A DNA stretch of 64,000 nt, taken from the NCBI GenBank assembly GCA_018434685.1, contig JAHDOV010000019.1, positions 62,001-126,000 of the forward strand, in the 5' to 3' direction. Shown in pieces: positions 15,701-22,560 of the stretch; positions within the stretch are counted from its first letter, which is position 1; each line of letters opens with the position of its first letter. The stretch is from Deltaproteobacteria bacterium (GTDB taxonomy: Bacteria; Desulfobacterota; Desulfomonilia; UBA1062). The notes under the pieces were generated by a model that saw only the letters and a program-made list of their open reading frames with translations, did no database searches and was not told where the DNA came from. The position numbers were made by a program, and so were the translations under genes.

Positions 15701-17257
15701 ATGGATGAAAAAAAGAAGGAAAAGGCAAGAAAACTCTCGAGACGTGATTTCATCAAGGCCACCGGTTCTGCTACGGCACTTGCAGGAGTAGCGGCATCGG
15801 GGATTCTCATGGGTCCGGGACAGGCAGACGCAGCTGAACCTCCCAAGAAATGGGACGACGAGACAGATGTCGTTGTCGTGGGCAGCGGTTTTGCCGGCAT
15901 GGCTGCTGCAATCGAGGCCAGCGAAGCAGGCGCATCAGTGGTTGTTCTCGAGAAGATGCGCACCTATGGCGGAAACTCGATCATCAACGGCGGCGTCATG
16001 GCAGTAGCCGGTTCCGATCTCCAGGAGCAGAAGGGCATACAGGACAGCCCGGACCTCATGCTGGAGGACATGATGAAGGCGGGTCTGTATATGAATCATC
16101 CCGAGCTTGCCGGTATGGTGGCCTATCAGTCCAGGGATGCGTACAACTGGTGCAAGGATCATCTCGGGGTGAAATTCGCCGGCATGCTCCACATGGGCGG
16201 TCACACGGTTGCCCGAAGCTGCCCCACCTCTATCTACAGCGGTTCGGAGATCGTCAACAAGGAGATGGCCAAGCTCAAGGAACTGGGTGTCAAGGTCTCG
16301 ACCGGTACCTACCTCGAGAAACTCTTCCAGGGCAAGGACGGCAGGGTTATCGGCGTCCAGGTGCGGGAAGGATACAAGTTCCCGGATGAAAAGAGCGGGA
16401 CGGTCAGGACCATCAAGGCCAAAAAGGCCGTGGTGATGGCCTCCGGCGGGTTCTCCAATGACGTGGCCTTCCGGATGATCCAGGACCCCAAGCTGATCGC
16501 AAAGGTGGAATCCACCAACCAGCCAGGTGCCACTGCCGAGGCGCTCAAAGAGGCACTGAGGATCGGCGCTACCCCTGTTCAGATCTCATGGATCCAGCTC
16601 GGCCCCTGGGCGAGCCCCGATGAGAAGGGCTTCGGCATCGGCCCCCACTTCGCAACCGGCGCGGTGTTCACCTACGGCATCATGGTGGACCCGGACACCG
16701 GTAAACGGTTCATCAGCGAGCTGGCAGACCGCAAGATCCGGGCGGATGCCATCATCAGGACCGGCCATCCGGCCATCGGGATCGCGGATGATGAAGGCGC
16801 CCACAAGGCAGGAGGTCCTCCGGGCCTGTTGGAGAAAGTCCTCGACCGGGGGGTTGTCAAGAAATACGACTCCCTTGAGGCACTGGCCAAAGATCACAAT
16901 ATCCCGTTTGCGGCCCTGAAGGAAAGTGTCGACAAGTACAACTCCTATCTCGAGGCAGGCACGGACAAGGAATTCGGCCGCTACCTGCAGAAGGATGCCA
17001 AGCCTATGGTCAAGGCTCCCTTCTATGCGATGAGACTCTGGCCTAAGGCCCATCACACCATGGGCGGAATACAGATCAACAAGAATGCCGAGGTGATAGG
17101 GCTCGACGAGAAGCCTGTTGCAGGCCTCTTTGCAGCCGGCGAGGTGGCTGGTGGTGTCCATGGCGCGGTCCGGTTGGGGAGCGTTGCCGTGGTGGACTGC
17201 CTGGTCTTCGGGCGTATCGCCGGGAAGAATGCAGCCGCTCAGAAACCCTGGGCATAG
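15701..17257 (+). CDS. Tat-exported fumarate-reductase-type FAD flavoprotein (paralogue 1)
   Basis: The 518-residue protein opens with a twin-arginine signal (SRRDFIKATGSATA) and an Ala-rich segment ending near DAAEP. The FAD-binding start DVVVVGSGFAGMAAAIEA follows, then the flavocytochrome-c/fumarate-reductase signatures GGNSIINGG, GKRFISELADRK (candidate catalytic Arg), HHTMGGIQIN and GAVRLGSVAVVDCLVFGRIAG. Neither a haem domain nor an FMN-binding domain is present, so electrons must come from a partner protein. Fumarate reductase, urocanate reductase and related enoate reductases all share this fold; the substrate cannot be decided. A hairpin follows the gene, and a second copy lies 465 bp downstream. 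Confidence 0.88.
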   Translation: MDEKKKEKARKLSRRDFIKATGSATALAGVAASGILMGPGQADAAEPPKKWDDETDVVVVGSGFAGMAAAIEASEAGASVVVLEKMRTYGGNSIINGGVMAVAGSDLQEQKGIQDSPDLMLEDMMKAGLYMNHPELAGMVAYQSRDAYNWCKDHLGVKFAGMLHMGGHTVARSCPTSIYSGSEIVNKEMAKLKELGVKVSTGTYLEKLFQGKDGRVIGVQVREGYKFPDEKSGTVRTIKAKKAVVMASGGFSNDVAFRMIQDPKLIAKVESTNQPGATAEALKEALRIGATPVQISWIQLGPWASPDEKGFGIGPHFATGAVFTYGIMVDPDTGKRFISELADRKIRADAIIRTGHPAIGIADDEGAHKAGGPPGLLEKVLDRGVVKKYDSLEALAKDHNIPFAALKESVDKYNSYLEAGTDKEFGRYLQKDAKPMVKAPFYAMRLWPKAHHTMGGIQINKNAEVIGLDEKPVAGLFAAGEVAGGVHGAVRLGSVAVVDCLVFGRIAGKNAAAQKPWA

Positions 17258-17721: not shown

Positions 17722-19254
17722 ATGGATGAAAAGAAGAAGGGTAGCGAAAAGAAACTGAACAGGCGTGATTTTCTCAAGACCACAGGAGGGATTGCAGTAG
17801 CCGGTGTAGCTGCCGGGGGATTGTTTGCCGCGCCCGCGAAGGTCTTTGGCGCGGATATGCCGAAGAAGTGGGACGAAGAGGTCGATGTGGTGGTAATCGG
17901 CAGCGGCTTTGCCGGCCTGGCAGCGGCCATCGAGGCGAAGCAGGCAGGTGCGTCGGTAGCGGTCCTCGAGAAGATGCCGATGTACGGCGGAAACTCCATC
18001 ATCAACGGCGGCGTCTTTGCCGTGGCAGGATCACCCAAACAGGAGGCCGAGGGCATCAAGGATACACCCGAGCTGTTGCTGGAAGATATGATGAAGGCCG
18101 GCCTGTACATGAATCATCCCACACTGGCCCGGATGATTGCCGAGAAGTCTCGCGAGGCGGCAGAGTGGACCGAGTCCATCGGCGTGGAATACAAGGAGCG
18201 CGTCACTCACCTGGGCGGACACTCCGTGCCCCGCAGCTATTCCGCCTCGAACGGCAGCGGTTCGGCCATCGTGATGAAGGAGGTGGAAAAACTCAAGAGC
18301 ATGGGCGTGAACATCAGGACCAAGACCTATGTCTCGGCCATCATCCAGGACAAGGACGGCAAGGTCGTCGGCGTGAAGATCAGGGAAGGATACAAGTTCC
18401 CGGATGAAAACAGCGGTACCGTCAAGTATCTGAAAGCCAGGAAGGGTCTTGTGCTCGCCTCGGGCGGTTTCAGCAGGGATATCTACTTCAGGACCCTGCA
18501 GGACCCCAAGCTGACCGAAGACGTGGATTCCACCAATCAGCCCGGTGCAACCGGCGAGCTCCTCATGGAGGCCCTGCGTGCCGGCGCAACCCCCGTGCAG
18601 ATCTCCTGGATCCAGCTCGGCCCCTGGACCAGCCCGGACGAGAAGGGCATGGGCATCGGCTATGTCTTCAACGCCATGGGTGCATTCGTGTATGGCGTGA
18701 TGGTGAACCCCAAGACAGGCAAGCGCTTCATCAATGAGCTGGCCGACCGCAAGATGCGCGCCGATGCGATCATCCGGACAGGCCAACCCGCCATCTGCAT
18801 CGCCGACAGCGAGGGCGTCAAGCGTGTCTCCGTCCTGGAGAAGACCATTGAGAAGGGCGTGGTCAAGAAATTCGACACCCTCGAGGCGCTGGCAAAAGAG
18901 TACGGGATCCCCGTGGATGCTCTGAAGGAAACCGTGAACAATTACAGCAAATACGTCAAACAGGGCAATGATGAGGAGTTCGGCAAGTACATGCAGACCG
19001 ACTCCAAGCCCATGGAAACGCCGCCGTTCTATGCCTGCCGTGCCTGGCCCAAGGTGCACCACACCATGGGCGGCATCCAGATCAATGAAAAGGCGCAGGT
19101 CATCGGGCTCGACCGCAAGCCGATTCCCGGGCTCTATGCCGCCGGTGAGATTACCGGCGGTATCCACGGCGCTGTCCGCCTCGGCAGCTGTGCCGTGCTC
19201 GACTGCCTCGTGTTCGGACGGATTGCCGGCCAGAGTGCCGCCGCGAAGGTGTAG
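17722..19254 (+). CDS. Tat-exported fumarate-reductase-type FAD flavoprotein (paralogue 2)
   Basis: The 510-residue protein is a clear paralogue of the gene before it; long blocks are nearly identical (GGNSIINGG, MMKAGLYMNHP, STNQPGAT, GATPVQISWIQLGPW, HHTMGG). The twin-arginine signal is NRRDFLKTTGG and a probable cleavage site follows VFGA. FAD-binding DVVVIGSGFAGLAAAIEA and the GKRFINELADRK and GAVRLGSCAVLDCLVFGRIAG segments are present. It too lacks haem and FMN domains. The separate intergenic region, operator-like palindromes and own terminator suggest independent control and perhaps a different substrate from paralogue 1. A start at 17722 follows AAAGGAG. Confidence 0.88.
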   Translation: MDEKKKGSEKKLNRRDFLKTTGGIAVAGVAAGGLFAAPAKVFGADMPKKWDEEVDVVVIGSGFAGLAAAIEAKQAGASVAVLEKMPMYGGNSIINGGVFAVAGSPKQEAEGIKDTPELLLEDMMKAGLYMNHPTLARMIAEKSREAAEWTESIGVEYKERVTHLGGHSVPRSYSASNGSGSAIVMKEVEKLKSMGVNIRTKTYVSAIIQDKDGKVVGVKIREGYKFPDENSGTVKYLKARKGLVLASGGFSRDIYFRTLQDPKLTEDVDSTNQPGATGELLMEALRAGATPVQISWIQLGPWTSPDEKGMGIGYVFNAMGAFVYGVMVNPKTGKRFINELADRKMRADAIIRTGQPAICIADSEGVKRVSVLEKTIEKGVVKKFDTLEALAKEYGIPVDALKETVNNYSKYVKQGNDEEFGKYMQTDSKPMETPPFYACRAWPKVHHTMGGIQINEKAQVIGLDRKPIPGLYAAGEITGGIHGAVRLGSCAVLDCLVFGRIAGQSAAAKV

Positions 19255-20415: not shown

Positions 20416-20823
20416 GGCTATCCTCCTCGGTCATGTAATGAATGGAACTGCGAATCACATCCCTGCCGTGCTTGAGGGCACAAGAATCAAGGCATGCTCA
20501 TGCGCAGTACCATCAGAATTCACTTACCGCCGATGGCAGAACCCGGTGCCTGTGAACAAACGCCCTTCCTGCGAAAGCAAAAAAAAACCAGATATCACAG
20601 GGAGATGCGGATCTTAGCTGAGAGCCTTCGTGGGGACGATAACAAGGCAGCGCTGCTGAAATTGCCTCTTCTGCATCCGATTTAAGCATATGCTTTTCCA
20701 GGAGTCAAATCTATTGAGGTCTCTTGAAGGCTGCGAGCGGCAGCGATGGCCCGGAAAGGATTGAGCTCTCTCTCAGTACAGTTTGCTGTTGCATTCTCCA
20801 GGGCTCTCGTGAAAGAATCCATC
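20416..20823. other. Intergenic region with one 12-bp palindrome
   Basis: This divergent 400-bp region contains no convincing ORF. AAGCATATGCTT (20684-20695) is a perfect palindrome that could serve as an operator for the GNAT-deacetylase gene. An A-run lies at about 20579-20588. Confidence 0.4.
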
Positions 20824-22560
20824 ATGTTCAGAATCAGGAGAATCTACGATGACATCCTCCCGGTGAACCGCTTTGCCCTCGACCAGGTCCGGCAGATCCT
20901 GAAGGAGAGGTTTCCCGGGCTGAACAGTGCCGATATAGAGAAGATCCCCGAATTGCTCACCAACCCCCTGAAACACCGGTTCAAGTCCATGCTCTATGTG
21001 GCAGAGGATATGAAAGGCACCGTCAAGGGGTTTGCCGTCCTTTCCAGGGAACCCGAGCTGAAATTCTGCTACCTCGACTACATATCCTCGAGCATGTTGA
21101 TGGAGGGCAGGGGGATCGGCGGGATTCTCTACGAGCATATCCGCGACGAGGTCCTCCTGATGGACAACATGGGGATTTTCCTTGAATGTCTGCCCGATGA
21201 TCCGAAGCTCTGCAAAGACCCGGAGATACTGAAGCAGAACAGGGCGCGGCTGAGATTCTATGAAAAGTATGGTGCACGGCCCATTGTCAATACACTCTAC
21301 GAAACCCCGGTAAGCCCCGGCGGCGACAATCCGCCCTACCTCGTGTTCGATGACCTCGGCCAGGGGAGGCCGCTAGAGATGGCACAGGCGAAGACCATCG
21401 TACGGGCCATACTGAAGGGCAAGTATGCTCACCTGGTCAGCAAATATTATATGGATATGGTTGTGAACTCCTTCCGCGATGATCCGGTGCTGTTGCGGCC
21501 GGTGCGATATGCAAGGACAGTCCCGGTACAGGTGAATCCGTGCAGGGGGAGATCTGCCAGGATTGCCCTGGTCGTGAATGAAAAGCACGAGATCCACCAT
21601 GTGCGAGAGCGGGGGTATGTTGAATCACCTGTCAGGATCAGGACCATCCTGGAAGAGCTGGAATCCACGACGCTCTTTCAGAGGCTGCCGCCCAGGACCT
21701 TTTCAGAGAAGGTCATCAGGGAGGTCCATGATGCGCAATACATCGAGTACTTCAAGAGACTCTGCTCGCTGCTGGAGCCCGGCAAATCCGTCTACCCGTA
21801 CGTGTTCCCCATCAGGAATGCAGCACGGCCCCCGAAGGAACTGGCTGTACGGGCAGGGTATTACTGCATAGATACATTCACCCCGCTGAACAAGAATGCC
21901 TTCCTTGCGGCCAAGCGAGGGGTCGACTGCTCACTGACTGCAGCGCACGAGCTGCTCAAAGGACATCGCATCGCCTATGCACTCGTACGGCCTCCGGGGC
22001 ACCACGCCGAGACCCGCTCATTCGGCGGATTCTGCTACTTCAACAATGCAGCCATAGCGGCGAACTACCTGAGCCGGTTCGGCAGGATAGCGATCCTGGA
22101 TATCGATTACCATCACGGCAACGGCCAGCAGCAGATCTTCTATGAACGCAGCGATGTCCTCACCGTATCCATTCACGGGCATCCCCATTTTGCCTATCCG
22201 TATTTCAGCGGTTTTGCCGACGAGAAGGGTGCCGATTCGGGAACCGGATTCAATCTGAACATTCCGCTGAAGGAAACGATAACCCCGGAGGAATACTTAA
22301 AGGCACTCGAACATGCCCTCAAGGCGATCTCGTCGTTCAACCCTGCCTACCTGATCGTCTGCCTCGGCCTGGACACCTCCAAGGGCGATCCTACCGGCAC
22401 CTGGAGCCTCATGGCCAGGGACTTCGAACGCGTTGGCAGAACCATCGGCCGATCCCGGTTCCCCATCCTCGTCGTTCAGGAGGGGGGATACCGGACACGG
22501 GTCATCGGGATCAATGCACGGCATTTTTTCTTCGGGCTGTGCACCGGCATGTGGGGGTAA
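20824..22560 (+). CDS. GNAT acetyltransferase-histone deacetylase (AcuC-like) fusion
   Basis: From 20824 the protein has 578 residues (the frame is open to 20746, but that extension looks like non-coding sequence). The first ~180 residues look like a GNAT fold: YVAEDMKGTVKGFAVLS, CYLDYISSS, then GRGIGGILYEHIRDE, which is the acetyl-CoA loop, and FYEKYGARP at the end. From about residue 235 comes a class I/II-type deacetylase with RPPGHHAE, GFCYFNNAAIAA, DIDYHHGNGQQ, VSIHGHPHF, GLDTSKGDPTG and EGGY, which supply the zinc ligands and catalytic His pair. One polypeptide thus has both an N-acetyltransferase-like and a deacetylase domain. It could control a reversible acetylation or act on acetylated polyamines; the substrate is unknown. 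Confidence 0.85.
   Translation: MFRIRRIYDDILPVNRFALDQVRQILKERFPGLNSADIEKIPELLTNPLKHRFKSMLYVAEDMKGTVKGFAVLSREPELKFCYLDYISSSMLMEGRGIGGILYEHIRDEVLLMDNMGIFLECLPDDPKLCKDPEILKQNRARLRFYEKYGARPIVNTLYETPVSPGGDNPPYLVFDDLGQGRPLEMAQAKTIVRAILKGKYAHLVSKYYMDMVVNSFRDDPVLLRPVRYARTVPVQVNPCRGRSARIALVVNEKHEIHHVRERGYVESPVRIRTILEELESTTLFQRLPPRTFSEKVIREVHDAQYIEYFKRLCSLLEPGKSVYPYVFPIRNAARPPKELAVRAGYYCIDTFTPLNKNAFLAAKRGVDCSLTAAHELLKGHRIAYALVRPPGHHAETRSFGGFCYFNNAAIAANYLSRFGRIAILDIDYHHGNGQQQIFYERSDVLTVSIHGHPHFAYPYFSGFADEKGADSGTGFNLNIPLKETITPEEYLKALEHALKAISSFNPAYLIVCLGLDTSKGDPTGTWSLMARDFERVGRTIGRSRFPILVVQEGGYRTRVIGINARHFFFGLCTGMWG

Follow-up and report, generated by a model that had tools for sequence, protein, structure and literature searches.

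Described counterparts

AcuA and AcuC, the acetyltransferase and the deacetylase of acetyl-CoA synthetase, exert opposed activities on one target. The fusion gene described here resembles this pair in joining opposed GNAT and HDAC-type activities that may share one target, but AcuA and AcuC are separate proteins with a protein substrate. On a Rhizobium plasmid (NZ_CP121654, locus L131, 3543-5071) the same two domains occur unfused: an aminotransferase gene is followed by a GNAT gene and then by an APAH-like deacetylase gene whose start overlaps the GNAT gene and whose product is 38% identical to the deacetylase part of the fusion. These are two separate genes beside an aminotransferase, in contrast to the fusion, and the annotated stretch holds no KamA/ATP-grasp pair.

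The acetylpolyamine amidohydrolases (APAH) form cluster 4 of the bacterial deacylases in PMC11532494. The fusion shares with them the fold, the zinc-site and catalytic residues, the RPPGHH and EGGY motifs and a long L2 loop, but differs in its N-terminal GNAT domain, in having no equivalents of APAH Glu106 and Glu117, and in a gene context of KamA and ATP-grasp enzymes. The AblA/AblB pathway, named in PMC4685198, leads to N-epsilon-acetyl-beta-lysine, an osmolyte, and resembles our locus in that a lysine-2,3-aminomutase-type enzyme occurs together with a GNAT acetyltransferase. The locus differs from it by the addition of two ATP-grasp ligases and a deacetylase, by stand-alone GNATs that fall under the cut-off of the AblB model TIGR03827 (205.1 bits; two score 16-17 bits and one gives no match), and by the fusion itself, for which an NCBIfam search matched no model, that of AblB included.

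In a literature search of titles and abstract openings, mainly open-access, we found no description of the fusion or of the gene cluster; earlier publication is possible, a 2009 survey of ATP-grasp amidoligases being one likely place.

Architecture of the fusion gene

The window, i.e. the whole stretch of 64,000 nucleotides that was analysed, begins at C10:62001 of its genome, in which the fusion lies at C10:82824-84557. The reading frame is open from 20746 to 22560, with an in-frame start also at 20746; a start at 20824 has the support of the nearly invariant Met1-Phe2 in the aligned homologues, which start at that methionine. A scan of genome contigs listed at least 591 pattern matches, 580 of which encode relatives, and the best 80 of these were kept. 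All 80 kept loci cover the protein in full length (starting at residue 1 or 2 and reaching residue 572 of 578 or beyond, at 55-65% identity), and a chance fusion or an artefact of the reading frame is therefore excluded. The fusion is a conserved two-domain family in bacteria of many phyla. The features of the gene are listed in Table 1.

Table 1. Features of the fusion gene (positions in the window; residue counts refer to an alignment of 87 sequences).
Feature	Position	Strand	Evidence or remarks
Whole gene, GNAT-like domain fused to APAH-type deacetylase	20824..22560	+	578 aa
GNAT-fold domain, residues 1-183	20824..21372	+	AlphaFold model pLDDT 92.6; Foldseek, VIA-align to GNATs
Pyrophosphate-loop segment GRGIGG, residues 95-100	21106..21123	+	Gly97, Gly99 invariant 87/87
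Conserved helical extension after GNAT fold, residues 184-232	21373..21519	+	helices 186-201, 207-215; alignment and model
APAH-type zinc deacetylase domain, residues 242-578	21547..22557	+	Pfam E 2e-76; Z 45.4 to 6pi8
Catalytic His393-His394 pair, RPPGHH motif	22000..22005	+	invariant 87/87
Zinc ligands Asp428 and His430	22105..22113	+	invariant
Zinc ligand Asp517	22372..22374	+	invariant
Tyr556, EGGY motif	22489..22491	+	invariant

From sequence alone the GNAT assignment is unsure, since two GNAT Pfam models match only weakly and under cut-off (E 0.0024 and 0.0026, between residues 20 and 150) and a phmmer search of the N-terminal part against the PDB found no GNAT. The predicted structure is clearer. 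Folded alone with AlphaFold, residues 1-232 give a model with a pLDDT of 92.6 and a pTM of 0.90, which Foldseek matches to GNATs with an E of 4.7e-9, and whose best structural alignment (Z 16.4, rmsd 2.7 over 168 residues) is to 2wpx, a tandem GNAT with acetyl-CoA bound. The model thus supports an acetyl-CoA-binding type of fold for the N-terminal part, as the first-pass annotation had claimed; absence of this fold from a structural model, which would have spoken against that claim, is not what was found.

The pyrophosphate loop of GNATs has the canonical motif Q/R-x-x-G-x-G/A. In the fusion family the G-x-G is invariant (87/87), but the opening Q/R is absent, position 94 being Glu here and variable elsewhere, so that the GRGIGG segment, previously called conserved, is conserved in part: its glycines 97 and 99 are fixed, while Arg96 is found in 36/87 and Gly100 in 68/87 sequences. 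The residues of the GNAT part that are identical in all 87 sequences also comprise Tyr103, Glu121, Asp125 and Phe145-Tyr146-Glu147, of which Glu121 and Tyr146 are residues that we take to be typical of active GNATs.

The C-terminal half shows the features of the zinc-dependent HDAC/APAH superfamily, i.e. an arginase-deacetylase fold, an Asp-His-Asp zinc site, a His-His pair and a Tyr. Pfam Hist_deacetyl matches residues 266-567; in the full-length AlphaFold model, computed from the 87-sequence alignment (mean pLDDT 86.8, pTM 0.71), residues 242-578 superpose on APAH with an rmsd of 2.2 over 332 residues (Foldseek E 5e-31), and the closest solved relatives by sequence are the acetylpolyamine amidohydrolases 9gkz, 6phr and 3q9b. 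Asp426 is identical in all 87 sequences, as are the residues in Table 1, whose catalytic and zinc-binding roles are presumed from knowledge of the family. The structural match lists do not speak against GNAT or deacetylase subfamilies that they lack. The Pfam match, the invariant active-site signature and the structural similarity to APAH support the description of this half as a complete zinc-dependent deacetylase. With two complete domains and active-site signatures intact in 87/87 sequences, the earlier view that both parts look functional is likewise supported, and both halves are probably catalytic. A defence-system reading was dropped, the fusion having no PADLOC match.

Gene context of the fusion

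Clustering of the neighbours over 90 loci identified pairs of ATP-grasp genes, which lie in tandem, and a gene for KamA, a radical-SAM protein resembling lysine 2,3-aminomutase, as the strong recurrent partners of the fusion, along with a short stand-alone GNAT gene. Pfam assigned these partners to Radical_SAM plus LAM_C, to Dala_Dala_lig_C (twice) and to Acetyltransf families. Neighbour clusters 3, 5 and 8 were set aside, as they look, from position and strand, like antisense ORFs of the core genes. At least one ATP-grasp gene is present in the fetched flanks of 45/80 loci, and KamA with both ATP-grasp genes in 35/80; 34/80 loci have no core gene and one (L042, near a contig end) has the stand-alone GNAT only. 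Where the flanks are long on both sides, an ATP-grasp gene is present in 26 of 34 loci. A core gene lies within 50 bp of the fusion and on the same strand in 35 of the 45 loci. Several gene orders are seen, and that they differ between distant phyla argues for a shared function rather than a shared history. The linkage of the fusion to the KamA/ATP-grasp cluster is well supported.

The 34 genomes without a core gene at the locus were searched genome-wide for KamA and for the first ATP-grasp protein (ATPg1), and the results were counted by hand. Both were found on one contig in 24 genomes (in G081 with ATPg1 partial, at a contig end) and on different contigs in three (G083, G084 and G090); in seven (G061, G064, G065, G069, G070, G071 and G080) the search detected no KamA or no strong ATPg1. 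The genome that carries the window has its own cluster just outside it, 26 kb from the fusion, with KamA at C10:55277-56362 (-) and ATPg1 at C10:54267-55238 (-), followed by the second ATP-grasp gene (ATPg2; L119 7226-8254); no stand-alone GNAT was detected beside it. An operon within the window was dropped as an explanation, the window neighbours being absent from the neighbour clusters common to many loci. The window also holds two tandem, similar flavoprotein genes (15701-17257 and 17722-19254), FAD-binding and by eye fumarate-reductase-like, whose N-termini resemble twin-arginine signals.

Of 180 neighbour proteins near the clusters, 100 were selected by hand; no Pfam family occurred in more than five of these 100, and no further conserved member emerged. 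The 100 include three MarC-family proteins and three MscS channels, a hint at transport or osmotic stress from numbers that are too few. In three loci (L037 5132-5734, L043 4564-5169 and L050 3110-3712) the cluster encloses a gene for a MarC-family membrane protein, and another such gene is found in the window's own genome about 3 kb from KamA (L119 13678-14274, +); an exporter role for them is possible. MscS-type channels near the fusion gene (L043 7212-8084, L052 2313-3227, L080 9380-10231 and L104 8648-11029) are a weak hint at osmotic stress.

Distribution

The record titles among the best 80 loci comprise Desulfuromonadales, Dehalococcoidia, Nitrospiraceae, Spirochaetes, Planctomycetes, Bacteroidales, Lentisphaerae, Synergistales, Acidobacteria, and Alpha- and Gammaproteobacteria, many carriers being metagenome bins of which single labels may be wrong (e.g. 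one Nanoarchaeota bin). Cultured carriers, going by the titles, include Pseudodesulfovibrio pelocollis and Ancylomarina. The presence of the fusion is patchy. When the window's own genome and 59 relatives were compared, 10 of the 60 carried it, and a profile of the GNAT domain gave 10 matches in these genomes (E up to 1e-8), each of them the fusion itself. KamA and ATPg1 are linked in 23 of the 60 genomes by hand reading, and all 10 carriers are among these 23 (hypergeometric P 1.5e-5). When only the 24 genomes of the window's own family are counted (19 with the linked pair and nine carriers), the association is weak (P 0.07), and shared ancestry therefore explains part of it. In a sample of 80 Bacteroidales genomes, the centre of which was itself chosen as a carrier, two have the fusion. 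A strong ATPg1 is present in 11, which include both fusion genomes; all 11 also have a strong KamA, in 10 cases on the contig of ATPg1.

In many genomes the cluster stands without a fusion gene (13 of the 23 linked-pair genomes among the relatives and 9 of the 11 in the Bacteroidales sample), and the fusion is therefore dispensable for the core product. The dependence seems to run one way, from the fusion to the cluster, as it does for an accessory tailoring enzyme.

Predicted product of the gene cluster

The KamA of the window's own genome aligns to the lysine 2,3-aminomutase 2A5H (E 3e-131). All 48 KamA sequences have an Asp where 2A5H has Asp293 and Asp330, which we take to hold the side-chain amine of lysine. 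Each of the radical-SAM cysteines is kept in 47 of the 48, the remaining sequence having a gap there. For three KamA that were tested, the lysine model TIGR03820 is the best NCBIfam model (461, 471 and 499 bits), with all three scores under its cut-off of 525.4 bits; glutamate or arginine 2,3-aminomutase was rejected, the corresponding NCBIfam models scoring below the lysine model in all three cases. Of the 44 KamA sequences in which the start of the domain could be located (it could not in 4/48), 38 carry a [DE]PP motif in an otherwise variable N-terminal extension, for example in L119 9251-10549 (-), L036 1318-2664 and L043 772-2115. The two ATP-grasp proteins resemble D-Ala-D-Ala ligases, with the E-x-N signature kept in 49/53 and 42/56 sequences, respectively. 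A small beta-lysine peptide would be the natural guess for the product of the cluster.

Substrate and role of the fusion protein

That KamA and two ATP-grasp ligases are linked to the fusion points to a beta-lysine-derived small molecule, and a substrate of the beta-lysine type appears, on sequence and gene context, somewhat better than evenly probable. We infer catalysis by both domains, a beta-lysine building block, a small-molecule substrate and, with these, a purpose: the fusion would be an accessory tailoring enzyme that adds acetyl to, and removes it from, an amine group on beta-lysine or on a small peptide of beta-lysine, and not on polyamines or proteins, a proposal to which we give an even chance. 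KamA would convert L-lysine to beta-lysine, which the ATP-grasp enzymes would couple to other amino acids, yielding a dipeptide or tripeptide; the GNAT domain would transfer an acetyl group from acetyl-CoA to an amine, either on beta-lysine itself or on the peptide, and the APAH-type domain, a zinc-dependent hydrolase, would take an acetyl group off this molecule. Acetylation and deacetylation may belong to different stages, as in a protecting-group cycle. In one rather unlikely version, which involves an undescribed family of beta-lysine peptides, the GNAT domain would mask one amine of beta-lysine so that the ATP-grasp enzymes join the right one, the deacetylase then unmasking the finished peptide. 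Alternatively, they may set the acetylation level and the charge of a stored solute. Against a tailoring enzyme stand the sub-threshold scores of KamA for lysine 2,3-aminomutase, the many clusters without a fusion, the seven of 34 genomes in which no KamA or no strong ATPg1 was detected, the weak association within the window's own family, the 26 kb between the genes in the window's own genome, and the risk of a futile cycle in a protein with both activities. Such a cycle would be avoided by a GNAT domain that binds acetyl-CoA without transferring it and switches the deacetylase on and off; the missing Q/R of the pyrophosphate loop and the frequent presence of a separate stand-alone GNAT that could acetylate would fit this sensor, but a mere sensor need not keep Glu121 and Tyr146 invariant in 87/87 sequences, and the window's own genome has no detected stand-alone GNAT beside its cluster, which leaves a sensing role improbable. 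We consider it similarly improbable that the fusion is a regulatory switch which acetylates and deacetylates host proteins, e.g. an enzyme of the same cluster. The [DE]PP motif of most cluster KamA might be a docking site, and AcuA and AcuC are known as opposed, separate enzymes with AcsA as their one target. Both proteins are named in PMC11532494, according to which PsApaH, whose deacetylase type is that of the fusion, can also remove acetyl from peptides and from acetylated AcsA. Against this, the L2 loop and the dimer narrow the active site of APAH-type enzymes (PMC11532494), and the L2 loop, which the fusion keeps, would favour small substrates.

Polyamines are suggested by the nearest solved relatives, all acetylpolyamine amidohydrolases, and the GNAT part would then acetylate, and the APAH part deacetylate, spermidine, putrescine or cadaverine. 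In Mycoplana ramosa APAH (M. ramosa), Glu117 forms a salt bridge with the polyamine (PMC5454378), while selectivity is increased in trans by Glu106 (PMC11532494). In an alignment to 3q9b these residues correspond to the invariant Phe352 (87/87) and to Ala341 (Glu in 1/87), which weakens the polyamine substrates proposed in the first-pass annotation, and polyamine genes are absent among the recurrent neighbours, as judged from neighbour clustering and from Pfam of the chosen neighbours. PsApaH, however, has His at 106 in place of Glu and still acts on acetylpolyamines (PMC11532494). The fusion keeps both RPPGHH and EGGY, motifs linked to acetyl-specific deacetylases (PMC11532494). Its gatekeeper motif, the invariant Pro523-Thr524-Gly525, differs from the PIS of PsApaH, others being PEG in HDAC10 and PKG in HDAC6 domain 1 (PMC11532494). 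Arg331 and Asn332 are invariant, and positions 335 and 343 are Arg in 80/87 and 70/87 sequences; together with the replaced glutamates and the gatekeeper motif, these residues would fit a substrate that carries less positive charge than a polyamine, e.g. one bearing a carboxylate. A polyamine substrate is thus quite unlikely.

Significance

Enzymes with opposed acetylating and deacetylating activities are usually separate proteins. A fusion of the two that is fixed in bacteria of many phyla has to escape a futile cycle or make use of it, and offers a clean model for how this is done. The cluster of KamA, two ATP-grasp ligases and GNAT should make a beta-lysine metabolite in many uncultured bacteria and, if the role proposed here for the fusion is true, an HDAC-type enzyme would gain a role outside polyamines and proteins.
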